Shown here: piece by piece, positions 5,951-60,626 of the stretch
Layout: each line of letters starts with the position of its first letter
How positions within the stretch are numbered: the first letter of the stretch is position 1
Position numbers and translations under genes: made by a program
Origin: a virus
Reading direction: 5' to 3' (one strand)
Length of the DNA stretch: 64,000 nt
Virus record (IMG/VR): IMGVR_UViG_3300033978_000480
Span: 62,001 to 126,000 of that record
Notes under the pieces: generated by a model
The model's database searches: none
Told to the model about the DNA's origin: nothing
Seen by the model: the letters and a program-made list of their open reading frames with translations, nothing else

Positions 5951-6292
5951 GGGGGCGTACTGGTATCGACGTATAGACGGAAACACACATTGCATTCCGT
6001 GGTTGATCGAGAGGCCACGTTAATACTCGATTAAATGTTAATTGGCACTTTCAACAGTGTCCCCGCTCTCGCTGCCTGAGCAGTGATCGGGTGAGGCGCG
6101 TGACCTCATCGCCCATCACGCTGGCCGACTGGAAGAAGTCTGACAGGCTGGACAGACAGCCAAAGATGGTGGTAGCCCACCTGACGCCGATAATCGGCTG
6201 GCTTTGTTCATTGTGTAAGCAACAATGAGACATGAATGTAGACGTGTGTGTGGAAACTATTACGGACGCGGGTTCGACTCCCGCCGCCTCCA
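5951..6292 (+). ncRNA. ssrA: tmRNA (phage-encoded ssrA)
   Basis: The two ends form the tRNA-like domain: 5' GGGGGCG pairs with 3' CGCCTCC, and the 3' end GGACGCGGGTTCGACTCCCG is nearly identical to the T arm of enterobacterial tmRNA. A tag reading frame runs from GGC 6044 to TGA 6077-6079 and encodes GTFNSVPALAA, ending in the ALAA degradation signal. Stable helices follow (for example around 6083-6122), as in tmRNA pseudoknot regions. It would rescue ribosomes stalled on broken phage or host mRNA and tag the products. The resume codon (GGC, Gly) is inferred from the frame and the usual tag length. CCA is not encoded beyond the discriminator. Confidence 0.92.
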
Positions 6293-18738: not shown

Positions 18739-20919
18739 ATGAGCGAACTTCCAAATAGTATTTCTAGCGCGGTTACGATATGGGCGGCTAAACAGGCTGA
18801 CCTAAACCCTGATATTCAGCTGCAAGACCACCAGCAAAGAATCGCCGACAGAATCTCGGGCCAAGATCCCAGATTATTGGTCTATCACGGCCTAGGTTCG
18901 GGGAAATCTTTATCGGCGCTCGCTGCGGCAGAAGAAGCGCAGAACCAGAGCGGCGGGAATTACGGCGTCGTAGTCCCGGCGAGCTTGCGGGGAAACTTCC
19001 AGAAAGAAATTGGCAAGTTCACGCATGACTCGAATCCAGAGATCATGAGCTACACGGGCTTAGCCTTGGGCAAGAACTTCCAAGAGCAGCCCGACACGCT
19101 GATCATGGACGAAGCACATAGACTTCGCAATCCACGTTCAGGGGCAGCGCAAGCAGCAGCGCAAGCAGCGGCAAACGCCAAAAGACTCTTACTGCTCACA
19201 GGCTCGCCGATCACAAACTCGCCCAGTGACATGGCGAATTTGTTATCTATGCTGAACAACAAGCAAATTACGCCAGAAGAGTTTGAAGACCGCTACGTAG
19301 GTTATAAGACAGTCCGGCCGGGCATCATGGGCTGGTTACGGGGCGCAAAGCCCGGCGTCAAGCCAGTCGTAAAGAACGAGGCTGAGTTACGCGCGCTCCT
19401 GAAGGGCAAAGTCGATTATCAGCCCAGCAAGACTCCCGACGGCGTGAACGTACAAGAAGAACAAGTCAAAGTGCCCTTATCAGCCGAGCAGCAAAAGATC
19501 CAAAAAGCTATTCGCACTAAAATTCCACCGGGTTTTCTCTGGAAGCTTGACCAAGAGTTTCCCCTAAGCCGCGACGAACTGGCGAAGTTAAATTCGTTTA
19601 TGACGGGCATGCGCCAAGTGAGTCTGTCCACGCAGCCGTTTCGCGTGGACAAAGACCCGGCGAAAGCGTTTACACAGAGCGCGAAGTTACAAAAAGCATT
19701 TGAAGACCTGCGCGCTACGCTGAAAGAAGACAAGCGCAAAAAAGCTATTATCTACTCGAATTTTATTGACTCTGGCTTGGCCCCCTACGCGTCTGCGTTA
19801 GAAAAAGCCAAGATCCCGCATGCGTTTTTCCACGGCGGCGTCAGCCCAAAGGCGCGCCAAGCCGCCGTGGACGCATACAACACGGGCAAGCTTAAAGCTC
19901 TGCTCATTGGCCCTGCGGGCGCCGAAGGCTTGTCTACAAAAGGCACGAGTCTGATCCAGCTCTTAGATCCGCACTGGCATGAGTCGCGCAGTCAGCAGGC
20001 CAAGGGCCGTGGGTTGCGTTTTGACTCGCACGTGGGATTACCAGAAGAACTCAAGAACGTCGCAGTAAAAAGATATCTAAGTGCGTCGCAAAATCCCAGC
20101 TTGCTTGGCAAACTCATGGGCTACAAGCGCGAACGCACCGGCGACGAAGTTCTAGAAAGACTCACAGCCGAAAAAGAACAGATCAACGAAGAGTTTCGCC
20201 GGTTACTTCGCGAAGAAGGCTCGCAGTACGCAAACCAGCAGCAAGAAAAGCTTGGCGCTGCAGCTCCGCCAGACTTTCAGCCAGACTATACGCCGGGCCA
20301 GTTACACGGCATGGGTGTATACAAGTCTTTGTATGAACAAGAGGGCCCGAGATTAGCCAGCTTAGGCGAATGGAAGCCAGAATGGGTCACAGAGCATGAC
20401 CCCAAGGGCTGGCTGGAGTGGTACCAGAACTATAACGCCGGCCGTAGAATCCCCGACGAAGACATGCGGCAGATCAAGCGCTGGGCGAGTTTCAAAGCAC
20501 GCCACGGCGGGCCATTTGTAAAGAAACCGTCGCCACGTAGAGGGTGGGCGCTACGAAACTGGGCGATTGACCCAGAGAAGCTAGTATCAAAATCCCGCGC
20601 GGGTGATATCAAAACCATGCTGCAAGAGTATCAAGAGAAAGAGCTGAAAAAATATCTTAAAAAACAGCCCATGCTGGCTGAAAAAACCAGCGCTAATATC
20701 GCCGCGCCGTTAAAACTCCTGCAAAAGCATGTAATAGCTGTTAGTTCGCGGCCTCTTCCAAAGAAAAAGAAACGCCTGCTACAATATGTAACTGGTTTAC
20801 CCCACCCCAAGGTGCCGGTGAAGCGCGTTATTGATAGCATCCTTGACGACGAGACTTCTCATGCCGCTCCCGATGATCTCGCCCAGCAAGCTGCCGGAGA
20901 TGCTGCTGTCTCGTCGTAA
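18739..20919 (+). CDS. SNF2/D6-D11-like superfamily II helicase
   Basis: 726 residues. Helicase motifs in order: Q-like LQDHQQR, Walker A GLGSGKS (near residue 55), Ia VVVPASL, II DEAH (near 124), III LTGSPITNSP, then in the second RecA domain AIIYSNF, ALLIGPAGAEGLS and motif VI QQAKGRGLRFDSH. The motif VI region followed by GLPEELKNVAVKRYL resembles the D6/D11-type helicases of nucleocytoplasmic DNA viruses (early transcription factor and NTPase). The C-terminal 250 residues are unique. It could act in transcription by the phage polymerase, in DNA ejection, or in replication; context with virion proteins favours packaging in the particle. Confidence 0.88.
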   Translation: MSELPNSISSAVTIWAAKQADLNPDIQLQDHQQRIADRISGQDPRLLVYHGLGSGKSLSALAAAEEAQNQSGGNYGVVVPASLRGNFQKEIGKFTHDSNPEIMSYTGLALGKNFQEQPDTLIMDEAHRLRNPRSGAAQAAAQAAANAKRLLLLTGSPITNSPSDMANLLSMLNNKQITPEEFEDRYVGYKTVRPGIMGWLRGAKPGVKPVVKNEAELRALLKGKVDYQPSKTPDGVNVQEEQVKVPLSAEQQKIQKAIRTKIPPGFLWKLDQEFPLSRDELAKLNSFMTGMRQVSLSTQPFRVDKDPAKAFTQSAKLQKAFEDLRATLKEDKRKKAIIYSNFIDSGLAPYASALEKAKIPHAFFHGGVSPKARQAAVDAYNTGKLKALLIGPAGAEGLSTKGTSLIQLLDPHWHESRSQQAKGRGLRFDSHVGLPEELKNVAVKRYLSASQNPSLLGKLMGYKRERTGDEVLERLTAEKEQINEEFRRLLREEGSQYANQQQEKLGAAAPPDFQPDYTPGQLHGMGVYKSLYEQEGPRLASLGEWKPEWVTEHDPKGWLEWYQNYNAGRRIPDEDMRQIKRWASFKARHGGPFVKKPSPRRGWALRNWAIDPEKLVSKSRAGDIKTMLQEYQEKELKKYLKKQPMLAEKTSANIAAPLKLLQKHVIAVSSRPLPKKKKRLLQYVTGLPHPKVPVKRVIDSILDDETSHAAPDDLAQQAAGDAAVSS

Positions 20920-33054: not shown

Positions 33055-33130
33055 TGCCTGATAGCTCAGTTGGTAGAGCAGGCGACTGTTAATCGCCGGG
33101 TCGTAGGTTCAAGTCCTACTCAGGCAGCCA
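33055..33130 (+). tRNA. tRNA-Asn(GTT) with encoded CCA
   Basis: Cloverleaf TGCCTGA/TCAGGCA acceptor, D arm GCTC...GAGC, anticodon stem GGCGA/TCGCC around CTGTTAA (anticodon GTT), T arm GTAGG-TTCAAGT-CCTAC, discriminator G and an encoded CCA (33128-33130). It is the only tRNA in the window with CCA and lies 28 kb from the tRNA cluster, so it was probably acquired separately. Confidence 0.95.
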
Positions 33131-36623: not shown

Positions 36624-36644
36624 TCTCTTGCAAGGATGCGCATT

Positions 36645-37469
36645 ATGGCAAGGAAGCCAACCGCACAATCAGAAGCTCATGTTATTCCTGTCGGCGAGAT
36701 CCTCAAGCGTTTACACGCGCTCGGGTATTTCGGAGACAAGACACTGGCGCAGGTCAAAAAGATCAAAGGCGTCGAGTTACAGAAGGCTGTACGGGCGTTT
36801 CAGGAATTTAACGGCCTGAGCCCTACGGGCACAGTTGGCCCGAAGACCGCGCACCGGATCAACCGGCGTCGCTGCGGCCTACCTGATTTTAATATCACGG
36901 CACCCGGCGGCGACCCGTGCAAATGGCCAATGCCCGGCGTGACGTACTACCACGATGTGCATCTGCCCGGTTTAACAGACTCGCAGGTAGCCGAAGCGTA
37001 CGACATTGCATTCAGCCAGTGGGCCGAAGTGTGCAATCTGAATCCGTCGCGTGTTGATGCCGCGAACAAAGCTAATATTTATGCTCGTTCTGGCGTCGGT
37101 AAGAAGTACGGTTTAGATAACAAAGGCGGCACGTTGGCGTGGAGCGAGTTACCGTGCGGTGTTGCTGAAAACATCCAGCTTGATCAGATGTTTGACGAGG
37201 CAGAAGACTGGTCTTTTAATATGGCCGTCGCTGTCATCTGCCACGAGCTTGGTCACGCATTGGGCCTGCCGCATTTAAATTCCGGCAATCTTATGGCGCC
37301 GTATTACGACCCAAACGTCACAAAACCGCAAGATGGTGACGTTGTAGAGATAGTGAAGTTATACGGTAAACGAACAGCGGCGTATCCCATTACGCAAGAT
37401 GCCGGATTACAAATTAACGGTACGCTTACAATTAATGGTCGTCCGTATGTTCTTGTGCCGCAGACGTGA
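36645..37469 (+). CDS. Matrixin (MMP-like) zinc protease with peptidoglycan-binding-like domain and cysteine switch
   Basis: 274 residues from ATG 36645 (AAGGA 8 bases upstream). Residues about 17-70 are a PG-binding-1-like three-helix domain (LHALGYFGDKTLAQVKK...AVRAFQEFNGLSPTG.VGPKT). Residues 76-81 read RCGLPD, matching the PRCGxPD cysteine switch that keeps animal matrix metalloproteinases latent, with Cys77 as zinc-blocking residue. The catalytic domain has HELGHALGLPH (His200, Glu201, His204, His210) and a Met-turn NLMAPYY (Met217). It should be a zymogen activated after release, cutting envelope or matrix proteins. No export signal is evident. Confidence 0.9.
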   Translation: MARKPTAQSEAHVIPVGEILKRLHALGYFGDKTLAQVKKIKGVELQKAVRAFQEFNGLSPTGTVGPKTAHRINRRRCGLPDFNITAPGGDPCKWPMPGVTYYHDVHLPGLTDSQVAEAYDIAFSQWAEVCNLNPSRVDAANKANIYARSGVGKKYGLDNKGGTLAWSELPCGVAENIQLDQMFDEAEDWSFNMAVAVICHELGHALGLPHLNSGNLMAPYYDPNVTKPQDGDVVEIVKLYGKRTAAYPITQDAGLQINGTLTINGRPYVLVPQT

Positions 37470-42232: not shown

Positions 42233-45200
42233 ATGCCGACCCCTGAACTGCCCCCGTTAAAGCAACCCGATTTTGCTTCTGCGCCGCCGTTAGCGCCCGC
42301 AGCGCCAGCGCCTCTTCCGCCGCCAGCCATGCGCACGTTTGGCGATATTGGATCGATGCGGCAGAACATATTTGAGCAGGCACGTACGAGCGCGCAATCG
42401 TTGCGGCCTCTGCAGAACGATCTTTATACGCTGCAGCTGCAAGACGTAGATTATTCCGGCCCAGAAAGTTTCACACGGGCTGATCAGAAGAAAGCTGTCC
42501 TCTCTAGAGGCACGCTTGCTCGCCGATTGCAGGGTACGTGGACGCTCGTTGATAACAAAACCGGCGAGTCGGTTGGGCAGAAGCGCGCTACGATTGCACA
42601 CGTGCCGTATCTCACAGACTCTGGCACATTCGTAAACGGCGGCGTTGAATATACGCTAGCGCATCAGATGCGGTTAAAAGCCGGTGTGTTTACGCGCGAA
42701 AAAGACAACGGCGAGATTGAAGCGCATGTGAACACGCTGCCCGGTAAAGGCCGCTCGCATCGTTACTTCCTCGACCCCAAAACCGGCGTATTCAAAATCA
42801 GCATCGGGCAGGCGCAGATCCCACTCATGCCGATGCTCAAAAGCATGGGCGTCTCTGAGCAAGATATTCGCAAGGCGTGGGGCAACGAGATTACCGCCGT
42901 CAACATGGAAAAAGGCGACGCGGGCACAATGGATAAATTGTATGCCCGCATCGTAAATAAACAGGTGGCGGGAGCTGACGCGCTGGCCAAAGCAAAGGCT
43001 GTGGCTGAAGAGTTTGCCAAGACAGAGTTAGATCCAGAAGTAACTAGACGAACACTCGGCGGCGAGCACAAGAACCTTACGCCTGACACCATTCTGGCGA
43101 TTACAAAAAAACTTATCGCCGTCAATCGTCGCGAAGCCGAATCAGACGACCGCGACAACATGGTGTTTCAGTCAGTGGTCGGTCCAGAAGATTTAATATC
43201 AGAACGGTTTACAAAAGATCGGTCTGCGTTAAATAAATTACTCTGGCGGGCCACAGCGAAGAAGTCTATCGACCACATACCCAGCGGCGTATTCGATAAG
43301 GCTATTTCAGCTGCGCTAATCGGCTCTGGTCTCGGCTCTAGTCTTGAAGAAATCAACCCGGCCGAGATTTTCGACCACCAGACGCGCGTAACCCGCATGG
43401 GCGAGGGCGGCATCTCGTCACTAGACGCTGTTCCGGCCGAATCGCGTAGTGTGCAGCCGTCGCATCTCGGGTTCATCGATTATCTGCGGACGCCTGAGTC
43501 CGGAAAAGTCGGCGTTGATATGCGTTTTGCTCGTGGCGCAATGAAGGGCGCTGACGGCAAGGTGTATACGCCGGTTGTAAACATGCAGACCGGCGAAACA
43601 GAATATAAAACACCGCAAGAGCTGTCAGACACACCGCTAGTGTTCCCCGGCGAAGAGAACAACAAGTTGCCGGTTGTCGCTGCGCTCGTCAACGGAAAGA
43701 TGAAGTACGTTGACCGAAAAGAAGCGCAATACAGCTTGCCCAACATGGACTCGACGTTCTCCAGCCTTACAAACATGGTACCGATGAAGGCCATGATCAA
43801 AGGCCAGCGCGTCATCATGGGTTCGCGCATGTTTACTCAAGCTTTGCCGCTTGTAGGAGCGCAAGCGCCGTTAGTGCAGTCGGCCAAGTTTGATGACCCC
43901 AACATGTCGCACGAAGACGAAATGGGAGAAAAGCTTGGCGCCACCCGGGCAACCACTCGCGCGCAGGTAGTCGATGTAACGGCTGACGGTATTGTGCTGC
44001 GCGACAAAGACGGGAACAAGAAAACAGTCGAGTTGTATAACGAGATGCCGTACAACCGAAAAACGTTCTTGCATCAAACGCCGATGGTAAAACCCGGCGA
44101 TGTTGTGCAACCCGGGCAGCTGCTGGCTAAGTCAAACTTCACAGATGATCAGGGTAGCGCGGCACTCGGGCTTAACATGCGTGTAGCTTATGTGCCGTTC
44201 CGCGGTAAAAACTACGAAGACGCCATAGTGATATCAGAATCGGCGGCAAAACGGTTGACGTCTGAGCACATGTATCAGCACGAAGCAGAGTGGGATGAAA
44301 ATACACACGTCGGGAAAAAGGCATTCACAAGTCTGTTTCCGACAGAGTACGACAAGAAAATGCTGGACAATTTTGACGATCAGGGCGCAATTAAAAAAGG
44401 CGCTGTCGTTAATTTTGGCGACCCCCTTGTTCTCGTCGCTAAGAAAAAAGATACGGTGTACGGCAAGGTGCACCGCGGTCGTGCCGGTAGTTTCACCAAC
44501 GACACTGTTACGTGGGACCATCACGCGCCCGGTATTGTAACCGACGTTATGCACACCAAAAAAGGTGTCAGCGTTGTTGTAAAAAATCAGGCGCAGATGG
44601 ACGTTGGCGATAAGCTCACCGGTCGCTTTGGTGATAAGGGCGTCATTGCCGATATCATTCCAGACGACCAGATGCCGCAAGACAAAGAAGGCAATCCGTA
44701 CGAAGTGCTTGTCAGTCCGCTGGGTCTTATCAGCCGCGTGAATCCGGCGCAGGTTATAGAAGCAGCACTCGGTAAAGTTGCAGCAAAAACAGGCAAACCA
44801 TTCAAAATCAAAGACTTCGATGACCAGAATGATTTAATTGAATTTGCGCAGAAAGAACTCGACAAGAACGGGCTTTCAGACACAGAAGATTTAACAGATC
44901 CTGAGACTGGCCGAAAAATTCCGGGTGTTTTAACCGGAACGCGTTTCTTCATGAAACTGCACCATACAAGTGAGTCTAAGGCGCAGGGTCGGGCCATGGG
45001 GGCTTATACCGCCGAAGGCACGCCAGCAAAAGGTGGCAGTGAGGGCGCGAAGCGTGTTGGCATGCTCGACCTCGGTGCTTTGTTATCGCACGGCGCTGGT
45101 AAAGTTATCCGCGACGCCAAAATGGTACGCGGGCAGGCCAATCCAGAATACTGGTCGCAGTTCATGGCTGGCTATACGCCGCCGCTGCCGAAAGTTCCGC

Positions 45201-46669
45201 ATGTCTATGAAAAATTTGTTGGGCAGCTGAAAGCGTCTGGCATTAACGTCGTCCGCAGCGGCACGAAAACAAACGTCATGGCGTTGACTGACAAAGACGT
45301 GGATCAGCTTGCCGGTCCAAGAGAGATTCAAAACTCTGAGACTGTTGACTGGAAAGGCCGGTTGAAACCAATTGCTGGCGGCCTGTTTGACGAGAGCTTA
45401 ACAGGTGGTCACGGCGGCAATCGGTGGGGGAAGATAACCCTTCACGAGCCGATGCCGAATCCAGTCATGGAAGATCCGATCCGGCGTGTTCTCGGGCTAA
45501 CAGAAAAGAAATTCCGCGGTATCCTCGCCGGCCAAGACAAGATTAACGATCAAACCGGTCCCAAAGCTATTCAGACGGCGCTGGCCAATATTAATCTGCC
45601 GAAAGCGATTGAGCAGGCGCGTGAAGATATCAAATCCGGCCGTAAGACACTGCGCGACGCCGCTGTTCGTAGGCTTGGGTTTTTGAAAAGCGCGGAGCAG
45701 GCCGGTGTGCATCCGAAGGACTGGATGCTGACAAAAGTTCCGGTCCTGCCGCCGCTATTTCGGCCGGTCAGCACCATGGGGCCGAAGAAGTTGCCGCTCG
45801 TTGCCGACGCGAACTACTTGTACAAAGAATTGCTCGACGCCAATGACTCGTTAAAAGAAGCGTCTGGTGCGCTTGCAGAGTACGGCGACGAGCGCCTTGG
45901 TGTATATGACGCCATGAAAGGCGTGACCGGTCTTGGTGAGCCGCAGCAGCCGAAAAACGCTGAACGCAACGTAAAGGGATTTTTACGGCATATTTTCGGC
46001 AACTCGCCCAAGTACGGTACGGTACAGCGCAAGTTACTCAGCTCGACGGTTGATCTTGTCGGCCGCGCTGTTATTACGCCGAACCCAGACCTAGACATGG
46101 ACGAGGTTGCCCTGCCAGAAGAGAAGGCGTGGGATATCTATAAGCCTTTTGTGGTGCGCGATTTAGTTCGCCGCGGCCTTCCCAGAATGCAGGCACTTGA
46201 TGCCGTAGAGAAAAAAACGAAAGAAGCGGCAGCCGTGCTTGAGCGGCAAATGAGTTCGCGCCCGATTGTTATTAACCGCGCGCCCGTGCTGCATCGTTAC
46301 GGCATGATGGCTTTCTACCCGCGGCTGACCAAGAACAAAGTCATGGAAGTCAACCCGGTTATTACCAAGGGTTTCGGCGCTGACTTTGACGGCGACGCGA
46401 TGCAATACCACGTACCCAGCACAGAAGACGCCGCTAAAGAAGCCGTGGACAAAATGCTACCCAGCAAAAATTTATTTGCGGCATCCACGTTTAAAGCGCA
46501 CTACGTACCGAACAAAGATTATCAAACTGGTTTGTACGTCGCGTCCAGTAGAATTAATAACAAAGCAAAACCCCGGGTATTCCGAAACAAGCAGGACGCT
46601 ATGCAGGCGTACAGGCGTGGTGAAATAGAGGTAGACACCCCGGTTCATATTGTGGAAGATACTAAGTAA
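42233..46669 (+). CDS. RNA polymerase beta subunit fused to the N-terminal half of beta'
   Basis: 1478 residues. The beta part contains NYEDAIVISE (near residue 659) and GDKLTGRFGDKGVIADIIP (near 790), matching the beta clamp/Mg2+-site regions, then a beta C-terminus with GAKRVGMLDLGAL. From about residue 1034 beta' begins (SETVDWKGRLKPIAGGLFDE), lacking the N-terminal zinc finger, and runs through RPIVINRAPVLHR to the catalytic loop GADFDGDAM (Asp1384, 1386 and 1388 binding Mg2+), where the usual Asn is Gly. The rest of beta' is at 47634. No alpha, omega or sigma gene is in the window. Such an enzyme would transcribe phage genes independently of the host core. Confidence 0.93.
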   Translation: MPTPELPPLKQPDFASAPPLAPAAPAPLPPPAMRTFGDIGSMRQNIFEQARTSAQSLRPLQNDLYTLQLQDVDYSGPESFTRADQKKAVLSRGTLARRLQGTWTLVDNKTGESVGQKRATIAHVPYLTDSGTFVNGGVEYTLAHQMRLKAGVFTREKDNGEIEAHVNTLPGKGRSHRYFLDPKTGVFKISIGQAQIPLMPMLKSMGVSEQDIRKAWGNEITAVNMEKGDAGTMDKLYARIVNKQVAGADALAKAKAVAEEFAKTELDPEVTRRTLGGEHKNLTPDTILAITKKLIAVNRREAESDDRDNMVFQSVVGPEDLISERFTKDRSALNKLLWRATAKKSIDHIPSGVFDKAISAALIGSGLGSSLEEINPAEIFDHQTRVTRMGEGGISSLDAVPAESRSVQPSHLGFIDYLRTPESGKVGVDMRFARGAMKGADGKVYTPVVNMQTGETEYKTPQELSDTPLVFPGEENNKLPVVAALVNGKMKYVDRKEAQYSLPNMDSTFSSLTNMVPMKAMIKGQRVIMGSRMFTQALPLVGAQAPLVQSAKFDDPNMSHEDEMGEKLGATRATTRAQVVDVTADGIVLRDKDGNKKTVELYNEMPYNRKTFLHQTPMVKPGDVVQPGQLLAKSNFTDDQGSAALGLNMRVAYVPFRGKNYEDAIVISESAAKRLTSEHMYQHEAEWDENTHVGKKAFTSLFPTEYDKKMLDNFDDQGAIKKGAVVNFGDPLVLVAKKKDTVYGKVHRGRAGSFTNDTVTWDHHAPGIVTDVMHTKKGVSVVVKNQAQMDVGDKLTGRFGDKGVIADIIPDDQMPQDKEGNPYEVLVSPLGLISRVNPAQVIEAALGKVAAKTGKPFKIKDFDDQNDLIEFAQKELDKNGLSDTEDLTDPETGRKIPGVLTGTRFFMKLHHTSESKAQGRAMGAYTAEGTPAKGGSEGAKRVGMLDLGALLSHGAGKVIRDAKMVRGQANPEYWSQFMAGYTPPLPKVPHVYEKFVGQLKASGINVVRSGTKTNVMALTDKDVDQLAGPREIQNSETVDWKGRLKPIAGGLFDESLTGGHGGNRWGKITLHEPMPNPVMEDPIRRVLGLTEKKFRGILAGQDKINDQTGPKAIQTALANINLPKAIEQAREDIKSGRKTLRDAAVRRLGFLKSAEQAGVHPKDWMLTKVPVLPPLFRPVSTMGPKKLPLVADANYLYKELLDANDSLKEASGALAEYGDERLGVYDAMKGVTGLGEPQQPKNAERNVKGFLRHIFGNSPKYGTVQRKLLSSTVDLVGRAVITPNPDLDMDEVALPEEKAWDIYKPFVVRDLVRRGLPRMQALDAVEKKTKEAAAVLERQMSSRPIVINRAPVLHRYGMMAFYPRLTKNKVMEVNPVITKGFGADFDGDAMQYHVPSTEDAAKEAVDKMLPSKNLFAASTFKAHYVPNKDYQTGLYVASSRINNKAKPRVFRNKQDAMQAYRRGEIEVDTPVHIVEDTK

Positions 46670-46692
46670 CTTTAGCTCGACACGGAGGTCGT

Positions 46693-47403
46693 ATGTTCAC
46701 TGTTAACCCCGAACTAATCGCGCTGGCAAAGGCGCGATTTGAGAAGTCTGCGCTCGTGCCCGGTGCCGCCGTTGATCCGGCTGCGGCTGGGGCTGCACCG
46801 CCAGTAGACCCTGCGACCATGGGAGCAGTGCCGCCGGTTGACCCCGCGATGGCCGGCGCCGCGCCCCCGATGGATCCCGCGGCAATGGGTATGCCTGCTG
46901 CGCCTGCGCCCATGCCTGCTGCTCCGGCGGCGCCGGGTGCGGCCCCCGCATCTGGAATGCAGCAAAAGTTAAAACCAGAACAAATGATGCAGATGCTCGA
47001 TTACCGGCTTTACAACATGCAGCAGCAGCTTACCGCGATTATGAACGCGATGGGCGTGCAAGTTCCGCCGGAATCGCTCGTCCTGCCGCCGGGTACTACT
47101 GGCGCCCCGCCCGCTGAAACAGCGCTGCCGGGTGGATCGATGGCTCCTCCGCCGCCGGATCAAAGCGCGCAGGGTGGCATGCAGCCGCCCGGTGGCCCGC
47201 TTCCGCCGGGTGGTCCGCTCCCGCCGAACGCCGCACCGCAAGATCCGACAGCGAAGGTTGCTTGGTGGAACGTAGAAGCGGAAAAGCCGGCGTCGTACAT
47301 CGGCTATCCTGTGCCGCAAAACCCGAATCAACCAACTGACGTGCAGATTAAAGCAAATGCCATATCCGCCATGATTCGGAGTCTTGCGGGCAATGCTGGT
47401 TAA
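46693..47403 (+). CDS. Pro/Ala/Gly/Met-rich disordered protein between polymerase halves
   Basis: 236 residues, CACGGAGG upstream. Repeats such as PVDPATMGAV/PVDPAMAGA and P.GGPLPPGG make most of it low complexity, with a helical middle (QKLKPEQMMQMLDYRLYNMQQQ). It is a full gene with its own ribosome site, so it is not an intron or intein between the polymerase halves. Role unknown; it may be a scaffold or a virion linker. Confidence 0.7.
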   Translation: MFTVNPELIALAKARFEKSALVPGAAVDPAAAGAAPPVDPATMGAVPPVDPAMAGAAPPMDPAAMGMPAAPAPMPAAPAAPGAAPASGMQQKLKPEQMMQMLDYRLYNMQQQLTAIMNAMGVQVPPESLVLPPGTTGAPPAETALPGGSMAPPPPDQSAQGGMQPPGGPLPPGGPLPPNAAPQDPTAKVAWWNVEAEKPASYIGYPVPQNPNQPTDVQIKANAISAMIRSLAGNAG

Positions 47404-47632
47404 AACGCAGCACCACTTACAGCCAACCGAGCAAAAGGCGCACAGCATCGTCGTGGAAGACGACGTTGGTAATCCGATCTTCGTCGCCATTCAAGTCGAC
47501 GAAGCCATCATTTACTCAACGCCCGGCGAAAAAGACTTCCACTCAATGCTGCGCGCTCTGGGTATTGAAAAAACGGTGGTTGTAGCCGACTTTAAACCTA
47601 AGCCGCTGCAGAATATTGTGCGGCCGATGTAA
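47393..47632 (+). CDS. Hypothetical protein, 79 aa
   Basis: 79 residues from ATG 47393, overlapping the previous gene by 11 bases. Beta-rich (SIVVEDDVGNPIFVAIQVDEAII) and compact. Ends one base before the start of the beta' C-terminal gene, so it may be translationally coupled to it. No family recognised; a small polymerase partner is a possibility, unproven. Confidence 0.6.
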   Translation: MLVKTQHHLQPTEQKAHSIVVEDDVGNPIFVAIQVDEAIIYSTPGEKDFHSMLRALGIEKTVVVADFKPKPLQNIVRPM

Positions 47633-47633
47633 C

Positions 47634-49514
47634 ATGCTTAAAACCACGCTCGGACAAGTCCTGATTAACGAAGCGCTCCCGCCGGAGATGCGCGACTATG
47701 ACCGCGTGCTCACTAAAAAAAGCATGGGCGCGCTGGCGACTGAGCTAGCCAAGTCGCATCCCGAAAAATATCGGGAGGCAATGAAAAAACTGCACGACGT
47801 CGGCAAAGACGCTGGTTACAGCAGCGGCGGGCTTTCTTTCAGTTTGAAGCACATTCGCCCGACGCTGGCCGTGAAAGCCGCGCAGATTCGCACGCAAAAT
47901 GCCATGCGCGAGATTCTGTCCGACAAGCGTTTAGACAGCAAAACGCGGCAAATTAAACTGCTAGAGTTAGCTGCAAACACGCAAAAAGAGTTGCTAGACA
48001 AGGTCTACAAAGAAGCCGAGAGCCAAGACAATCCGCTGGTGCATCAGATTGCTGGCGCTGGTGTCGGCAATAAATATCAATTGAATTCTTTGATCGGGGC
48101 TGACATGCAGTACCTCGATCACCGCGGCGAGCCGATTCCAATTCCAGTGCTACGCGGCTACGGGCAAGGGTTACGCCCCGTTGAATATTTTGCCGGCGCT
48201 TTCGGTACCCGCAAAGGTGTTATCGACCTTAAGACGGCCACCGCCGACGCTGGGTTTTACGGTAAACAGCTGGCGCAGATGACGCACAGACTTTTAGTCA
48301 CCGCGGACGACGATGACGATACAGACGAAGAGCGCGCGGCATCTGCGTTAGAACGTGGCTACCCCACAGACGTCGATGACCCAGATAACGAGGGCTCACT
48401 GCTCTCTCGCCCAATCGGACCGTATAAACGCAACACGGTATTAACGCCGAAGATCCTGCGTGACATTAAGGACATGGGCGTTAAAGATATTTTAGTCCGT
48501 AGCCCGATTGTAGGGGGTCCAGCAGATGGCGGCGTATACGCGAAGGACGTTGGTTATCGCGAAAAAGGCCGTTTACCGCCGGCTGGAGATTATGTGGGCA
48601 TCGCCGCGGCCCAAGCGTTGTCTGAACCTGTCACACAAAGCCAGATCAGCTCGAAACACTCTGGCGGTGTCGGCGGCGCAGGCGCAATCTCTGGTTTTAA
48701 AGCGCTCAATGCCCTTGTGCAGGTGCCGAAAAAATATCCCGACGGCGCCGCGCATGCGCAAGCCGACGGCCGGGTGCAAGAAATCCGTCCGGCTCCGCAG
48801 GGCGGCCACTATGTGCAGATTAATGGGCAAGATCACTATGTTCCGACCGAGAGAGCATTATCAGTTAAAAAAGGCGATGATCTTGAAGCTGGCGACGTAC
48901 TATCTGACGGTATGCCCAACCCGTCAGAGATCGTAAAGCACAAAGGCATCGGCGAGGGTCGGCGTTATTTTGTGCAAGCCATGCGGCAGGTAATGGGCAA
49001 TAGCGGGATTACAGCTCACCGCCGAAACATTGAATTATTGTCGCGCGGCCTTGTAAACCATGTCCGGCTGACCGACGAATATGGCGATTACTCGCCGGAC
49101 GACATTGTGCCGTACTCTTCGTTAGAGCGAAATTGGACGCCGCGCGACGGAAGCGTGTCAGCGGCGCCGCAGACATTAACCGGGCACTATCTCGAAAAAC
49201 CGGTTTTACACTATTCAATCGGCACGAAGATCGGTAAAAACGTGCTAACGAACTTGAACAAATACGGCATTAAAAATATTCAAGCCCACAAAGAACCGCC
49301 GCCGTTTCAGCCGGAAATGGTGCGGGGTATGGCCAATATTTCAAATGACCCGGATTGGATGACGCGCATGCTTGGGTCGTACCAAGAAAAAGGTTTAATG
49401 AATAGCGTTCACCGCAACTTATCCAGCGACGCCGCCGGCAGCAGTTATGTGCCTGCTTTAGCGCAAGGTGAGCAGTTTGGCGTAACCGGCACGACAAGCG
49501 GGTGGAAGCCTTGA
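47634..49514 (+). CDS. RNA polymerase beta' C-terminal half
   Basis: 626 residues from ATG 47634. Before the trigger loop, LVRSPIVGGPADGGVYAKD corresponds to the beta' RSVLTC..R.GVCAKC zinc site, but all its Cys are lost. The bridge/trigger region is GIAAAQALSEPVTQ...SSKHSGG (near residues 322-345): the trigger-loop His is kept, whereas the Met and Arg of the usual TMRTFH are Ile and Ser. GITAHRRNIELLSRGL is the later conserved helix. Together with the 42233 gene it completes the two large subunits in about 2100 residues, well below bacterial size. Confidence 0.92.
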   Translation: MLKTTLGQVLINEALPPEMRDYDRVLTKKSMGALATELAKSHPEKYREAMKKLHDVGKDAGYSSGGLSFSLKHIRPTLAVKAAQIRTQNAMREILSDKRLDSKTRQIKLLELAANTQKELLDKVYKEAESQDNPLVHQIAGAGVGNKYQLNSLIGADMQYLDHRGEPIPIPVLRGYGQGLRPVEYFAGAFGTRKGVIDLKTATADAGFYGKQLAQMTHRLLVTADDDDDTDEERAASALERGYPTDVDDPDNEGSLLSRPIGPYKRNTVLTPKILRDIKDMGVKDILVRSPIVGGPADGGVYAKDVGYREKGRLPPAGDYVGIAAAQALSEPVTQSQISSKHSGGVGGAGAISGFKALNALVQVPKKYPDGAAHAQADGRVQEIRPAPQGGHYVQINGQDHYVPTERALSVKKGDDLEAGDVLSDGMPNPSEIVKHKGIGEGRRYFVQAMRQVMGNSGITAHRRNIELLSRGLVNHVRLTDEYGDYSPDDIVPYSSLERNWTPRDGSVSAAPQTLTGHYLEKPVLHYSIGTKIGKNVLTNLNKYGIKNIQAHKEPPPFQPEMVRGMANISNDPDWMTRMLGSYQEKGLMNSVHRNLSSDAAGSSYVPALAQGEQFGVTGTTSGWKP

Positions 49515-49595
49515 GCCGCTTTTTGTAGGATATAAGGACTTCGGCGCGGTAAATTATTGCCGTGTCATTATTTGTGCGCAGCATGGAGGCTGGCC

Positions 49596-51980
49596 GTGTA
49601 TAACAAAAAAGCTAAAGAGTCGTCCGTTAAGCATCTGCTCAACGTCATGCGGTCCTATGACCGGACCCAGACTAAGTACGCTGATTTAGGCGGAAAAGGT
49701 GATGACACTTCTTTCGAGCAGTCGTTTAGCAATCTTGCGCACGCCTATCTCCGCGACTCAGCACCCAAGCTCCTTGACCACGAGATCGGTTTCCAGCTTC
49801 TCGACCGTAATCGCGAGAACACCAAGGCTGTCGGTGTATTTGCGTTTAAAGTTGGTTCGATGTGGCTGTACGCGCCCGTGTTCTTTTTAAACGGCGACCT
49901 CAAGGGCCACGAACTGCTGTATATCAAGAATCAGGACATGTTCGTGCCGCTCAAGGAAAACTGGATTAACTATCTGATCAACCGCAAGCCCAACATTCTT
50001 GGTAGCGGCGTCGAGCGCAATCTGTCTAATCTCGGCCAGCGCCAGCCTGACTTTACGCAACTCTCTCGTAGCCCGTCGAAGTTTGGTTCGGCGAAACCCA
50101 CGCTTAAAGAGATGATGACGGCCGCTATGCCGGCGTTCGCCAAGAGCGCCACATTAAATACACAACAAACCTTCGCTGAACTCGGTGAAGCGTTAAACCT
50201 GAAAACGTTCTTAAAGCAGGCTGGTTTAGACGTAATCGGCTCGTTAATTAAAATGTGCCAGTACGCGCCGCAGGTAGCCAACGCAATCGACGAGTTTCAC
50301 GGTTTAGATATCATCAAAGAAGCAATGGCTGCTGCCAAGCTTCGCGAAGCCGCCTCGACTACCAAAGTTGCCAGCGTACTGTCGGAAGCACCTAAGACGC
50401 CCGAAGCGGCCAAGGGTCTCAAGGTCATCGCGTATGACGCTACAGTTCAGACCAAACTGCCGGCTGGTCATACAGAAGAAGATCAAGAGAAGTTACTGCG
50501 CGACGGTGTGCTGATCCAAGACCAACGCGACCGCGACAATGTCTCGATCCCTTACAACATTCAGGTCGAGAAAAAGCTGTTCAATCCGACCGAAAGCGGC
50601 CTGTACGAGATCCTCGTCAAGCCCGGCGATATTGAGCGCTGCTACGTGGCTGTGCACCCGCAAGGCGCTGCCAAGCGCGAGAACTTCATTACTGTTGTGC
50701 GCACAGACGGCAAGCCTGACTGGCTTAATACCCGCGCTGACCAAGTGTTTGCGCTGTCGCGCGTTGAGGGCGAAGAGTTTGACAAGTGGTTCGACGCCCT
50801 GCCCGAAGCCAACAGCGTGCCCAGCAAAGACGCGCGGTATATCGCACTTAGCAAGCGCGGTGACTGTACGGCTCCGTTCCGCGTTATTCGCGAGTACGGC
50901 AAGTCGGAGCACGACATGCAGTGCTACGAAGTGCATCTTGAAGATCACTCGAAGTATCCGCCCAAGGGCAGCATTTGCGGTAGCTGCTATACAGACCCTC
51001 TGAACTATGACAAGTGGCGTGACGGTGTTCGCATTCACCTGAACGGTAAGAAGGGTTCCAGCCTGCGCGCGAGCATGGGCGACATCTTCGTGCCGGAAGG
51101 TTTCAAGCTCCTCAAGGTGAGCAAGGGCGCAGACGATGAGGACACGGTTAAAGATCAGGACGCATGTGGTTGCGGCGAGAGTGATCCGCCGGCCCTGCAG
51201 CCCGGCAACCTCGTTGACGCGCAACTGGCGCTGATGGGCAAGACTGCCGCCTTAACTGTGTACCACAACGGCACAGAGGTCAGCATTAACAAAGAAGCCA
51301 GCCTAAGCCCCATCAAGGCGCTGGTCACACTTGTTGAGCACCACGGCCTGCGTGAAGAAGCTGCCCGCGAGATCTTAAAGCAAGCGTCTGCCAAGAAGAA
51401 GTTTGAGTGCCGCGTGAAGTACGCCGATCCGTACGGCGGCGCAATGCTCGTCAACAGCGCCCCGAACGCCCCGACAGATCCGGGCCCGGTTATGGGCGGC
51501 GAAAGCATCATGGGCACCAGCGTTCCGACCCAGCTCGGTATTGACGTTGGTCTGCCTGTGTCTGGCATGAGCGCGAGCAACACAGACCGCAGTGTTTACA
51601 ACCCCAACACGCAGTTTGATAAGCGAGACGTGCGGTCTATCGTTGACGCCGCGCAGAGCGGCCAGCGCGAAGTATTTGACACGGCCATGGTGGGCACAAT
51701 GTTGCGCGCTGTACGTGACGACTCGCTGGTTGACCGGTATATGGGCGAGCTGACCAAGGGGTTAGACAAACTTGGCCGCATTTTATTTATGTTTTACTGG
51801 CACGGCGATCGGTTTGCTGAGCGTTATGGCAAGTCCGACATGCCGGAACTAGAAGATTCGCTGCGCAACGCGTTTGAAATGCTCGGCGACGTTATTCTGT
51901 TCCTCAAGCAGAAAACAATTGAACCGTATCCCGAAGAGGCCGCGTCGGATATCGATCTTGGCGCTACCGCTAACGTTTAA
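49596..51980 (+). CDS. Large phage structural-type protein, 794 aa
   Basis: 794 residues, GTG 49596 chosen because GGAGG lies 6 bases upstream; the open frame upstream lacks a ribosome site. Mixed domains: an N-terminal region with KVGSMWLYAPVFFLNGDLKG, a central beta region with Cys pairs (CGSCYTDP, DACGCGESD), and a helical C-terminal part (LVDRYMGELTKGLDKLGRILFMFYWH). I recognise it only as similar in style to large conserved phage proteins near the head genes. A portal, neck or co-packaged protein are all possible. Codon use leans to C/G endings, so expression is probably high. Confidence 0.6.
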   Translation: MYNKKAKESSVKHLLNVMRSYDRTQTKYADLGGKGDDTSFEQSFSNLAHAYLRDSAPKLLDHEIGFQLLDRNRENTKAVGVFAFKVGSMWLYAPVFFLNGDLKGHELLYIKNQDMFVPLKENWINYLINRKPNILGSGVERNLSNLGQRQPDFTQLSRSPSKFGSAKPTLKEMMTAAMPAFAKSATLNTQQTFAELGEALNLKTFLKQAGLDVIGSLIKMCQYAPQVANAIDEFHGLDIIKEAMAAAKLREAASTTKVASVLSEAPKTPEAAKGLKVIAYDATVQTKLPAGHTEEDQEKLLRDGVLIQDQRDRDNVSIPYNIQVEKKLFNPTESGLYEILVKPGDIERCYVAVHPQGAAKRENFITVVRTDGKPDWLNTRADQVFALSRVEGEEFDKWFDALPEANSVPSKDARYIALSKRGDCTAPFRVIREYGKSEHDMQCYEVHLEDHSKYPPKGSICGSCYTDPLNYDKWRDGVRIHLNGKKGSSLRASMGDIFVPEGFKLLKVSKGADDEDTVKDQDACGCGESDPPALQPGNLVDAQLALMGKTAALTVYHNGTEVSINKEASLSPIKALVTLVEHHGLREEAAREILKQASAKKKFECRVKYADPYGGAMLVNSAPNAPTDPGPVMGGESIMGTSVPTQLGIDVGLPVSGMSASNTDRSVYNPNTQFDKRDVRSIVDAAQSGQREVFDTAMVGTMLRAVRDDSLVDRYMGELTKGLDKLGRILFMFYWHGDRFAERYGKSDMPELEDSLRNAFEMLGDVILFLKQKTIEPYPEEAASDIDLGATANV

Positions 51981-52373: not shown

Positions 52374-53321
52374 ATGAATAACACGTTGCGTGATAGCCCG
52401 CGTCGTGCTCCGCACTGGCGCTGGCTGCGTGCTGTTGAAATCGACGGCGGTGGTTTTCGCGCGTCCCGGAATATTGACGGGCCCGATGGTTTTATCTGGA
52501 TTCGCCGCGCCCTAAAACTCAAGCGGCATTTTGAGCGAGCTAATAACAGGCCGCAGGCGGTATACGCGCTGCTGTACCGAGACCGCGACCTGTTCTGGGC
52601 GCATGCGATTTGGAGCGAAGATAAGTCGCCAACGCGCTGGGCAATAGAGGCGCGTATTTTAGCTGGCCAGACAGACGAAGAAATTGCGCAAAAAGCTGGC
52701 ACAGAACCGGGCGTCATCGCAGCTTACGCAAATACATTTTTCGACGTACGCGATAAATTAGATCGCATGGATTACGTCCAAAACGTAGTTATGGCTGACG
52801 CCGTAACGCGTGGGCTACAGGAGCGGCACTATGACCTGCTCTGGAAATTGCTCGGTTTTCGCGGCGGTCCTCACGTAATTGATGCAGTAATTAATAAGTT
52901 TCCAAACGTGAATCGCCCAGAAAACGCGGACGGTGTTTCTGGCTATTTTCAAGATATGGCGATCAGTAGCATGAAATATAAGGCCGCCATAGCCAGTTTG
53001 AGCGTTCCAATTAATACACATACACAGTTACCATTGCTCGATTCTTTTGTAAAATATGTAGAAATCGAGCGGACGACGGATAGTACCAGCAAGGCACACG
53101 CAACGATTGTCGAAAATATCGGCGCGATGTTATCTGCACTTCCGTTCAAAGTGGGTACAAAACTGGATTCGGCAGCTATAAAAATGTTACCTTACGATAA
53201 CGGGGCTGCCGAGTTACGAAACGATGAAATGATGATTGTGGCTACTGGCGGCTCGCTGGATAATCAAACGATCATCCAAGCACTGCATTACCCGGAGAAT
53301 ACCGATGCGGGCACTAAGTAA
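52374..53321 (+). CDS. HTH phage protein, possible small terminase or adaptor
   Basis: 315 residues. EARILAGQTDEEIAQKAGTEPGVIAAY (residues about 84-110) is a helix-turn-helix, followed by FFDVRDKLDRMDYV, a combination found in a phage family near head genes. It could be a terminase small subunit that binds packaging DNA, but no large subunit is in this window. The C-terminal half is soluble and helical. Overlaps the next gene by 17 bases. Confidence 0.6.
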   Translation: MNNTLRDSPRRAPHWRWLRAVEIDGGGFRASRNIDGPDGFIWIRRALKLKRHFERANNRPQAVYALLYRDRDLFWAHAIWSEDKSPTRWAIEARILAGQTDEEIAQKAGTEPGVIAAYANTFFDVRDKLDRMDYVQNVVMADAVTRGLQERHYDLLWKLLGFRGGPHVIDAVINKFPNVNRPENADGVSGYFQDMAISSMKYKAAIASLSVPINTHTQLPLLDSFVKYVEIERTTDSTSKAHATIVENIGAMLSALPFKVGTKLDSAAIKMLPYDNGAAELRNDEMMIVATGGSLDNQTIIQALHYPENTDAGTK

Positions 53322-55681: not shown

Positions 55682-57148
55682 ATGAGCATGATCAAAGTTA
55701 TTCAACCGCACTCGCAGGATTTCAGCGAGCCGGTCGCCGCGCTAATTAAGATATCTAGTCGCGGCATCATTGGCGCCGACAAGCAAGACCTTGTAAAACG
55801 CGCCGGCGCTGAATTTGCGCACAAACTTGAAAACATCAAGTTTGCCAAAGATGAGATCCCGGTTCACATGATCGCCATCGGGGCTACGGAAGATTACGGC
55901 CCCAACCGCAACGGCGACGGGTTTAGCCGCGAATGCTGCCAAAACTATCACAACACATTTGAAAAGTACGCCCGTTTTTACCGGGATCACGCCAATAAAA
56001 ATCCGGCAAAAAGTTTCGGCATTGTAAAAGCCAGCGCCTACCACGAGCCGATGCGCCGTATTGAGCTAGTTGTAGCTTTAAACGGCTCTAAAGAAGCCGC
56101 TGATCGTAACGGTGGTTTAATTGCCGATAAGGAAATGGAAAAGCTGGCAAACGACAAAGACATCGCCGTTTCCATGGCCTGCAAGATCCCGTTTGATAAG
56201 TGCTCTTCCTGCGGCAACACGGCCAAGACACGGGCCGAATACTGTGACGCTGTAGAAAACGGCGGGCACTGCAAGGCTGGCGGTTTACGGCGCAATATCG
56301 GGCGCGTTCTAGACGACGGCCACGTACTGCACGCCGATAACCCCAATCCTAGCTTTTTTGATATTTCGCACGTTTTCAGGCCTGCAGACCGCATTGCGTA
56401 TGTTTTCGGCAAAGTCGCCGAACTGCAAAAGGCGGCTTCTGCGCACTGTATTTCCGGGGTAGAGCTGGCCGAGCAAATGGGGATTACTGCCCCGATTGCC
56501 TTTGACGCTGGCGGTACCCCTAGTCGACGGGTGCAAACACAATTAGAGGCGTTAACACAATTAGCGCAGGCTGAGAAGTTAGCTGGTGACGGCGCTGCGT
56601 GGGCCCAGACCGCTCTCGCGTCTAATCCAGTTGTTCAACCGGCTATTGATGTAAATTGCTGCCCGTCTGTTAAAATGTCGGAAGTGTTGCGCGGATTAAC
56701 AGACGCCGGTGTAATCCTGCCTTTGCGGGACTTTCTGGCGTTGACAGTTAAATCAGCCAATGCGAAACTTGTTAGTGCAGTGGCCTACGCGCTGCCTAAC
56801 ATGTTCTCTAAAGTTGCAAACGATCCTGATGTCGTTGGGTTACTTGAGAACAACGTGTACTATCCAGCAAATGCCGCGTCGCCAAGCGTGCGGGTATGGG
56901 CTGAAAAAGTAGCACACACACATAGCGTATTACCGAGCAATGTTGAAAAGCGGGCTTATTTAGCCGCTCTTCGCAACGCTCAACCCAGTGAGTTTTCAAC
57001 AGATAAACAAGCAAGTGGAGAAGCAGAAACAGCTCTTGCGCAACATTACGCTTTGTATAAGATCGCTGCTTACGCCACAATCTGCGAGAAATATGGAAAT
57101 CATTGGTTGACAACAAACCACTGTGTATTGCAAAATTATGTCACATGA
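55682..57148 (+). CDS. Prohead/capsid maturation protease (gp21/HK97-type)
   Basis: 488 residues. IGATEDYGPNRNGDGFSREC and ARFYRDHANKNPAKSFGIV carry the catalytic His (near residue 103), and IAVSMACKIPFDKC the Ser (near residue 164), followed by a Cys-rich CSSCGN...YCD insert seen in prohead core proteases of large phages. The fold processes scaffold and capsid proteins during assembly. The C-terminal 200 residues are helical and probably serve as assembly domain. Position directly before scaffold and capsid genes fits. Confidence 0.8.
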   Translation: MSMIKVIQPHSQDFSEPVAALIKISSRGIIGADKQDLVKRAGAEFAHKLENIKFAKDEIPVHMIAIGATEDYGPNRNGDGFSRECCQNYHNTFEKYARFYRDHANKNPAKSFGIVKASAYHEPMRRIELVVALNGSKEAADRNGGLIADKEMEKLANDKDIAVSMACKIPFDKCSSCGNTAKTRAEYCDAVENGGHCKAGGLRRNIGRVLDDGHVLHADNPNPSFFDISHVFRPADRIAYVFGKVAELQKAASAHCISGVELAEQMGITAPIAFDAGGTPSRRVQTQLEALTQLAQAEKLAGDGAAWAQTALASNPVVQPAIDVNCCPSVKMSEVLRGLTDAGVILPLRDFLALTVKSANAKLVSAVAYALPNMFSKVANDPDVVGLLENNVYYPANAASPSVRVWAEKVAHTHSVLPSNVEKRAYLAALRNAQPSEFSTDKQASGEAETALAQHYALYKIAAYATICEKYGNHWLTTNHCVLQNYVT

Positions 57149-59660: not shown

Positions 59661-59699
59661 TCTATCCCTAACTAATTCAGGAACATGGAGGTTCCCAAA

Positions 59700-60626
59700 A
59701 TGCCCACTCAGCAAGAAATCCAACTGCTTAACGAGACGCTTTTTGAGCAGCTTGATACCCCCGGCATGCAAAAGCAGGCCATTGATGCGGTTAACGATTT
59801 CACGCGCACCAAGATGCGTGAAGACGGGTTCTACCGGCGGATTATGCCGCCGCTGACTATCACCAACGACGAGCTGGACCGTCAGGTTGACACTGACAAG
59901 CCCGTCAAGGTTGTGGACAAGGAGCCCGATTCCCCGGCGGCTGTGTCGCTTCCGTTCGCGACGCTCCCGATCAACTTCTACATCCGTGGCCCGCGCTACC
60001 GCGTCATGTTTGACCGGATCGTGTCGCCCCGCGCTGTGAAGGACGTCGACGAGCTGCGTACGTATGTCATCGACATCCGTCAGGTTCTGTCGGACAACAT
60101 GATCAAGGACATGCTGGCTGAAGAGGACGGCAAGTTTATTGCCGCCTTCAACGCCGTCCTGCCGACTGCTGGTGTTGCTAACGTCGCTAGCGGCGTTGTG
60201 CAGTACGAGGAGATCAGCGGTGGTATCACCCGCGAAACGCTGGTGGACGCCCTGAAGGTCATGCCGCGCACGCCGTCGCACTTTGAGGTTGAAACTTGCC
60301 TCGTGAATAACATCACGATCAAGGAACTCCTCAAGTTCGGCCGCGACGAAATGGGCGGTGACTTCTCGCAGGACATCATCAAGAACGGTTGGGCGGAAAC
60401 CAACTTCCTCAACTGCCGCTGGATCGTCACGATCAAGCGCGACCTCGTTCCCGATGATGCCATGTTCATGTTCGCCTCGCCGAAGTTCATCGGCAAGAAC
60501 TACGAGCTGGAGCCCACCACGATGTACATCCGTCGTGAGGCGTTCATGCTTGAGTACTTTGCGTATCAAACATCCGGCGGCTCGTTCGGCCATACGAACG
60601 GTCTCGCTCGGGTTGACTTCAAGTAA
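59700..60626 (+). CDS. Major capsid protein (HK97-like)
   Basis: 308 residues from ATG 59700; an ATG at 59685 is part of the ATGGAGG ribosome site. The order (N-arm helix, FYRRIMPPLTI, a P-domain region with FATLPINFYIRGPRY, long spine helix, and a beta-rich end with RREAFMLEYFAYQTSGG) matches HK97-fold capsid proteins. Codons strongly prefer G/C in the third base, as expected for the most abundant virion protein. Flanked by decoration and small head genes. Confidence 0.8.
   Translation: MPTQQEIQLLNETLFEQLDTPGMQKQAIDAVNDFTRTKMREDGFYRRIMPPLTITNDELDRQVDTDKPVKVVDKEPDSPAAVSLPFATLPINFYIRGPRYRVMFDRIVSPRAVKDVDELRTYVIDIRQVLSDNMIKDMLAEEDGKFIAAFNAVLPTAGVANVASGVVQYEEISGGITRETLVDALKVMPRTPSHFEVETCLVNNITIKELLKFGRDEMGGDFSQDIIKNGWAETNFLNCRWIVTIKRDLVPDDAMFMFASPKFIGKNYELEPTTMYIRREAFMLEYFAYQTSGGSFGHTNGLARVDFK

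Follow-up and report, generated by a model that had tools for sequence, protein, structure and literature searches.

The 64,000-nucleotide stretch analysed here (the window) covers bases 62001-126000 of the 157.5-kb virus record IMGVR_UViG_3300033978_000480 and carries two genes that together encode the large subunits, beta and beta', of a divergent multisubunit RNA polymerase (RNAP). Beta is fused to the N-terminal part of beta' (beta'N), the C-terminal part (beta'C) is encoded separately, and two further open reading frames (ORFs) lie between them, as follows (lengths in amino acids, aa):

42233-46669, plus strand: ORF1, 1478 aa, beta joined to an N-terminal beta' portion that extends through the double-psi beta-barrel (DPBB)/DFDGD domain
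46693-47403, plus strand: Pro/Ala-rich ORF, 236 aa, with GGAGG ahead of its ATG
47393-47632, plus strand: ORF of 79 aa, overlapping the end of the 236-aa ORF
47634-49514, plus strand: ORF2, 626 aa, the C-terminal part of beta' with the TTxG motif, rim helices, bridge helix, trigger loop, jaw and C-terminal clamp

The most likely start of ORF2 is the ATG at 47634, one base past the stop of the 79-aa ORF, rather than the TTG at 47616. The two intervening ORFs, which an earlier interpretation made from the letters of the window (the sequence-only reading) had described as complete genes with their own ribosome sites, are real: both are open, tightly packed and kept in 35 close relatives, and a family search including Pfam placed neither in a known family.

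The arrangement proposed in the same reading, with beta plus beta'N fused and beta'C separate, is borne out by profile searches, which place both halves in beta/beta', as well as by the relatives described below. In ORF1, Pfam recognizes Rpb2_3 at residues 371-428, Rpb2_6 at 582-926 (E 1e-51), Rpb1_1 at 1130-1211 and Rpb1_2 at 1327-1405 (E 8e-25), and ORF2 matches Rpb1_5 (E 9e-24). A phmmer search against PDB sequences assigned ORF1 residues 100-1028 to bacterial beta (best E 2e-68) and residues 1081-1473 to beta', and ORF2 to beta' from about residue 664 on in mycobacterial numbering. The AlphaFold model of ORF2 (predicted local distance difference test score, pLDDT, 86) resembles solved beta' chains of bacteria (E 8e-27) and contains the bridge helix at residues 182-216, while the model of ORF1 residues 850-1478 (pLDDT 84) matches solved bacterial beta' at E 3e-31, with top matches to cyanobacterial and plastid RpoC1, chains that end at nearly the same place. 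ORF1 comprises a complete beta and, fused to it, beta'N; ORF2 is the remainder of beta'. The joint and the catalytic elements lie at the following positions:

44612-44638, plus strand: beta active-site lysines K794 and K802 in GDKLTGRFGDKG, equivalent to E. coli beta K1065 and K1073 (coordinates from residue number)
45230-45421, plus strand: beta-beta' junction, ALTDKDV..ETVDWKGRLKP..GGLFDE, with the first zinc-binding domain replaced by GHGG
46376-46396, plus strand: catalytic loop GADFDGD, with Gly at the Asn458 equivalent and the three Asp kept
48177-48281, plus strand: bridge helix, ORF2 residues 182-216
48636-48659, plus strand: trigger-loop motif QSQISSKH, with invariant Gln335 and His342, equivalent to E. 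coli Q929 and H936

Alignment to E. coli shows that the beta C-terminus (..SGINV) passes straight into the beta' N-terminal motif ALTDKDVDQLAGPREIQNSETVDWKGRLKPIAGGLFDE; the end of beta abuts the start of beta' directly, and the joint is therefore a plain end-to-end fusion. The same alignment upholds the claim that ORF1 extends to just past DFDGD and that the trigger loop lies on ORF2, since ORF1 stops at E. coli beta' position 568 and ORF2 resumes at TTLGQ. The break had been called unusual in its place, a description that has to be abandoned: the cyanobacterial rpoC1/rpoC2 break is at 589 in Lyngbya (L185), 21 residues downstream, and the RNAPs of phiKZ-type phages are broken in the same region after the DPBB. 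The active-site set of two-DPBB polymerases is kept, comprising K794 and K802 of beta and D1384, D1386 and D1388 of the beta' DxDxD motif (D460/D462/D464 in E. coli), as are the equivalents of E. coli beta' R425 and H936, the latter, His342 of the trigger loop, being invariant across 49 sequences. The residue changes originally listed hold for the window, namely GADFDGD for NADFDGD (N458 to Gly), M932 and R933 to Ile and Ser next to the retained His, and the loss of both beta' zinc sites; in addition, the flap tip is short and the E. coli-specific inserts are absent. In E. coli, N458 contributes to recognition of the sugar of nucleoside triphosphates, and altered sugar discrimination is therefore possible in the window enzyme, judging from its sequence.

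The same layout recurs across many viral sequences. A scan of viral contigs with ORF1 recovered 45 loci, 39 of them with an intact pair of genes for beta plus beta'N and for beta'C. A third, widening scan and a scan with the E. coli beta' profile each comprise their best 80 loci, and their counts are no estimate of prevalence: the wider scan contained the intact pair in 57 of 80 loci, and the E. coli beta'-led scan contained 50 loci in which a single ORF of ~2100 aa spans beta, beta'N and beta'C (single-chain phages) and ~30 loci with separate beta' (~900 aa) and beta (~1000 aa) genes (separate-subunit phages). Most loci without an intact pair end at a contig or locus edge. Overall, the intact two-gene layout was found in 65 distinct viral sequences, including the cultured phages Arash and D69. 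The cultured phages with this fusion and this break are Arash (Gp206 plus Gp216), which infects Salmonella, and the Vibrio phages D69, D181 and D148, with 31% identity to the window phage in ORF1 and 23-25% in ORF2; in Arash, 4.8 kb separates the two RNAP genes, and its annotation labels Gp206 plain 'beta', leaving the fusion unremarked. The fused gene of D181 and D148 is further interrupted by an intron-like insert, which in D181 (L049:13440-14393) has a homing endonuclease ORF inside. A cellular carrier or a prophage was also considered as a source, and an ORF1 scan of 84,980 genomes yielded no close relative. The probability that the split was created by misassembly, a frameshift or a nonsense mutation within an otherwise continuous fused gene is negligible, given that the layout, together with the two conserved genes in between, is shared by dozens of independent contigs and that the identical break occurs in complete cultured genomes; as had been supposed, the split is genuine.

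Phylogenetic analysis with IQ-TREE (LG+C20+F+G4, 42 rows, 1271 columns, support given as bootstrap/Shimodaira-Hasegawa-like approximate likelihood ratio test) recovered the split enzymes, including those of the window phage, Arash and D69, as one clade (99/97), the single-chain enzymes as another (98/96), and the two as sisters (100/100). Bacteria (100/100) and the separate-subunit phages (100/100, on a long branch) both fall apart from this pair. A FastTree tree of 71 rows shows the same split, single-chain and bacterial groups, and with such long stems the deep placement relative to cells is untrustworthy. Because the split and single-chain clades are sisters, the fusion is most simply taken to be older than the break, and the break to have a single origin in the sampled data; the best reading is that a single-chain enzyme was broken once, after its catalytic domain. 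Sister groups would, on the tree alone, permit a split ancestral to the whole clade and later rejoining of the genes in single-chain phages, and phiKZ-type RNAPs are known to be broken at a similar place (PMC7598289). This reverse order seems unlikely, as beta' is continuous in most cellular relatives and in the separate-subunit phages, and in-register rejoining of genes kilobases apart is harder than a break. The break site also raised the prospect that the gene pair was acquired from a cyanobacterium, an idea favoured by the 21-residue distance between the two breaks and by the RpoC1 chains among the top structure matches. This origin is highly improbable: the tree rules it out by placing Lyngbya inside Bacteria (100/100), distant from the phages, cyanobacterial beta is unfused, and the shared chain end explains the structure ranking.

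Within the split clade, individual features vary. The Asn change, although real in the window, is no mark of the lineage, for the N458-equivalent position is Gly in 76, Asn in 40 and Ala in 6 split-clade loci. The second zinc site is retained in Arash and D69, unlike in the window phage, and its loss therefore happened within the split clade; the flap tip of Arash is also longer. The single-chain phage RNAPs (L083-L162, 50 loci) share with the window enzyme the beta-beta' fusion, the absence of the first zinc site and a related sigma-like protein, but differ in having a continuous beta', NADFDGD in 49 of 50 loci and the second zinc-site pattern in 43 of 50.

Evidence on presence in virions comes from Arash, whose virion proteome has been published. 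Gp206, the fused chain, was its most-detected protein (3516 spectra, 100% coverage), accompanied by Gp216, the beta'C chain (1210 spectra), and the sigma-like protein Gp10 (467 spectra) (PMC10585845). The spectra per residue, computed here as ~2.3, ~2.0 and ~2.0, respectively, are compatible with roughly equal amounts of the three proteins in the virion. An ortholog of Gp10 is encoded in the source record at G000:142204-143058, outside the window (PF04539, E 1e-7); it shares 66% with a near relative, and its family profile matches Gp10 at E 3e-22. Nine of the 15 single-chain genomes encode relatives of this sigma-like protein, against none of five separate-subunit genomes. The alpha subunit (PF01193) was detected in none of 18 split-clade records, compared with 13 of 14 control genomes. 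In both the window phage and Arash, the RNAP genes stand among structural genes, and the gene order downstream of beta'C matches that of the Arash structural genes Gp218-Gp222 and the capsid gene Gp226:

49557-51980, plus strand: homolog of Arash structural protein Gp218 (E 7e-18)
52374-53321, plus strand: homolog of Arash Gp219 (E 1e-5)
55682-57148, plus strand: homolog of Arash structural protein Gp222 (E 2e-48)
59685-60626, plus strand: major capsid protein candidate, homolog of Arash Gp226 (E 3.5e-34)

Layout, monophyly, structural synteny and the sigma-like protein all place the window enzyme in a clade of Arash-like split RNAPs. ORF1 and ORF2 contain no Cys in 2104 residues, where ~27 would be expected from the rest of the genome. 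Other long proteins of the same genome are likewise free of Cys, among them the sigma-like protein, an SNF2 helicase and a 1521-aa protein. The absence of Cys may be a mark of virion proteins, possibly virion-injected ones, rather than of the polymerase.

Taken together, these two genes probably encode the core of one phage RNAP of the bacterial kind, packaged with a sigma-like protein and descended from a single-chain ancestor that was broken once. One chain would contribute all of beta and beta' through the aspartate loop, and the other the bridge helix, trigger loop, jaw and C-terminal clamp; the two would assemble non-covalently, without alpha, around an active centre to which beta supplies two lysines and beta' three aspartates. 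The ancestor would have held beta and beta' in one chain, like the sister clade, until a single break after the DPBB, at a non-essential loop. The enzyme would be packaged in the virion with the Gp10 ortholog and then injected, allowing it to transcribe early genes independently of the host RNAP. An alternative in which the polymerase is a non-virion enzyme for middle or late genes, its presence in Arash virions being carry-over, deserves a smaller share of belief, though not a trivial one: phiKZ-type phages own both virion and non-virion enzymes (PMC7598289), and carry-over was raised by the Arash authors themselves (PMC10585845). It sits less well with a Gp206 spectral count that tops all virion proteins at full coverage, with the closeness of the RNAP genes to the capsid gene in the window phage and in Arash, and with a source record in which a single RNAP and no second one was found.

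Several points weigh against this reading. Assembly, activity, promoter use and timing are predicted for every member of the clade. Fission was preferred to later rejoining by parsimony with the sister clades, the tree itself leaving the direction unfixed. The Arash authors, who regarded the two proteins as a conventional beta and beta' and did not decide between packaging and carry-over, noted that proteins abundant during infection could enter virions as passengers (PMC10585845). Pfam sigma region 2 was undetected in the sigma-like protein of the window lineage, and sigma-70-like promoters were no more frequent upstream of genes than in shuffled sequences; k-mer enrichment in intergenic DNA consisted mostly of T-runs. 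Finally, the 157.5-kb record is a fragment when set against its longest relatives of ~203-205 kb, and a second polymerase could therefore be missing from it.

Among known polymerases, the comparison suggested by the sequence-only reading was the deeply branching lineage of Weinheimer and Aylward (2020) (mReC), in which, as in the window phage, tailed-phage beta/beta' can be aligned to cellular enzymes. That lineage was selected by a COG0086 match of >=800 aa with NADxDGD and described as having two subunits and Gp23-type capsids (PMC7481178). Judged by this published description, membership is not supported: the window protein has GADFDGD and only ~450 aa of beta' in ORF1, so it fails the filter, and the Gp23 capsid family (PF07068) occurs in 3 of 7 separate-subunit genomes but is absent from all 15 single-chain and all 18 split ones. 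The Arash capsid weakly matches the HK97-type Phage_capsid family and shows no match to Gp23. Because the Gp23 capsid occurs only among separate-subunit phages, which form a distinct branch and show the mReC marks of two subunits, NADxDGD and Gp23-type capsid that the window phage lacks, the filter and capsid type indicate that mReC is most likely the separate-subunit group. It could still be argued that the window phage belongs to mReC and that the fusion was merely overlooked there, as a fused protein with NADFDGD (L006, L029) could pass the filter for both COGs; with a window protein lacking NADxDGD and PF07068 in 0/33 single-chain or split genomes, we regard this as quite unlikely.

The suggestion that the fusion point differs from that of Helicobacter was likewise not sustained. 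Helicobacter RpoBC (L240) has the same kind of joint, from the beta C-terminus to the beta' N-terminus, and so does the RpoBC fusion of Wolbachia; the difference lies in the subsequent breakage of beta', both bacterial proteins having a complete beta' in one 2900-aa chain, with zinc sites kept and alpha used. Cyanobacterial and plastid RpoC1/RpoC2 resemble the window enzyme in the break after the DPBB, but their beta is separate and they belong to a different clade. The crAss-like phages have a single-chain two-barrel RNAP that is used from the virion. The tape-measure RNAP of P23-45 is another such phage enzyme (PMC10770324), and both are far more divergent than the window enzyme, the crAss RNAP being unrecognised by beta/beta' profiles (PMC7481178). 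The phiKZ/AR9-type RNAPs are split after the beta' DPBB, lack alpha and include a virion-packaged version (PMC7598289). They share with the window enzyme a beta' broken after DPBB-A and no detected alpha, whereas their beta is itself split and unjoined to beta', in contrast to the whole beta fused to beta'N in the window; their sequences are too divergent for good alignment, and no sigma homolog is recognisable by sequence.

A possible route to the break is suggested by inteins. Long in-frame inserts with intein ends interrupt the RNAP ORFs of relatives at more than 12 sites, including beta 423, 533, 612, 796 and 836, a position just after DFDGD, and beta'C 195, 208 and 330. Several are at active-site motifs, with the catalytic loop and a position beside the trigger loop among them; site 423 is occupied in both sister clades. 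Intein-like inserts were seen in L005, L022/L038, L043, L044, L045, L247, L248, L267, L268, L277, L282, L287, L290, L293, L304, L308, L313 and L320 and in single-chain loci (L089, L094, L099, L113, L119, L126), with at least four each in L282, L304 and L045. At residue ~940 of the fused gene, two relatives (L283:410-7254 and L289:168-7254) have a split intein, with an N-half ending in a stop followed by a C-half that has its own start and continues into the remainder of beta-beta'N. In L283, the two halves flank an unrelated ORF of 600 codons. When joined, the two halves score below the curated cut-offs against the Intein_splicing and HINT models (E 6e-6 and 2e-5), but they have Cys1, the TxNH block and the SN|S terminus. 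These split inteins show a route by which RNAP genes of this family can break. No intein was found in the relatives at the beta'N/beta'C break, where one would have lent direct support to intein-driven fission, leaving this route to the fission plausible, if unproven. A fuller scenario, which we put forward tentatively as possible yet rather doubtful, is that a cell-type RNAP was made a single polypeptide in tailed phages and that one branch was broken again by intein-driven fission, giving a two-gene enzyme that would work without splicing or alpha and be virion-borne with its own sigma-like factor. On this view, the cis inteins, the split inteins of L283 and L289 that already divide the fused gene in two, and the fixed two-gene enzyme of the window lineage would represent its stages.

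Other interruptions were also observed. In the related contigs L290, L309 and L288, a lone in-frame stop lies in the beta GDK..GDKG motif (GRYG*GDKGV), reflecting recoding, an error or an insert. In L293, L294 and L299, ~380-450 aa that are not intein-like are inserted in beta near ORF1 residue 261, and the start of the insert in L293 and L294 resembles a SET domain by eye.

The fused-then-split layout and the single-chain beta-beta' group appear to be without a report in the open-access literature and reviews, subscription papers and bioRxiv lying outside the search. The layout adds a new architecture to a known kind of enzyme; it has culturable members, for one of which presence in the virion has been published. 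It marks a widespread phage clade whose RNAP can be aligned residue by residue to the bacterial enzyme although it is fused, then broken, and apparently does without alpha. Such a clade offers a natural experiment on which components of the universal transcription machinery have to be linked and which have to stay apart, and on how assembly works without alpha. Since Arash can be cultured, experiments can already address whether a bacterial-type RNAP holoenzyme is injected. The presence of both inteins and split inteins in these genes gives a rare view of how essential genes fragment, a question that the phiKZ-type enzymes also raise.

Further features of the window and its relatives include a SNF2-type helicase of 726 aa without Cys at 18739-20919. 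SWI2/SNF2 helicases accompany phiKZ-type RNAPs (PMC7824862), and the DNA helicase Gp217 is present in Arash virions. A matrixin-type metalloprotease with a peptidoglycan-binding domain is encoded at 36636-37469 (PF00413, E 2e-18) and kept in 38 relatives. The window also contains a phage transfer-messenger RNA at 5951-6292, with the tag GTFNSVPALAA, near five tRNA genes, and a tRNA-Asn at 33055.

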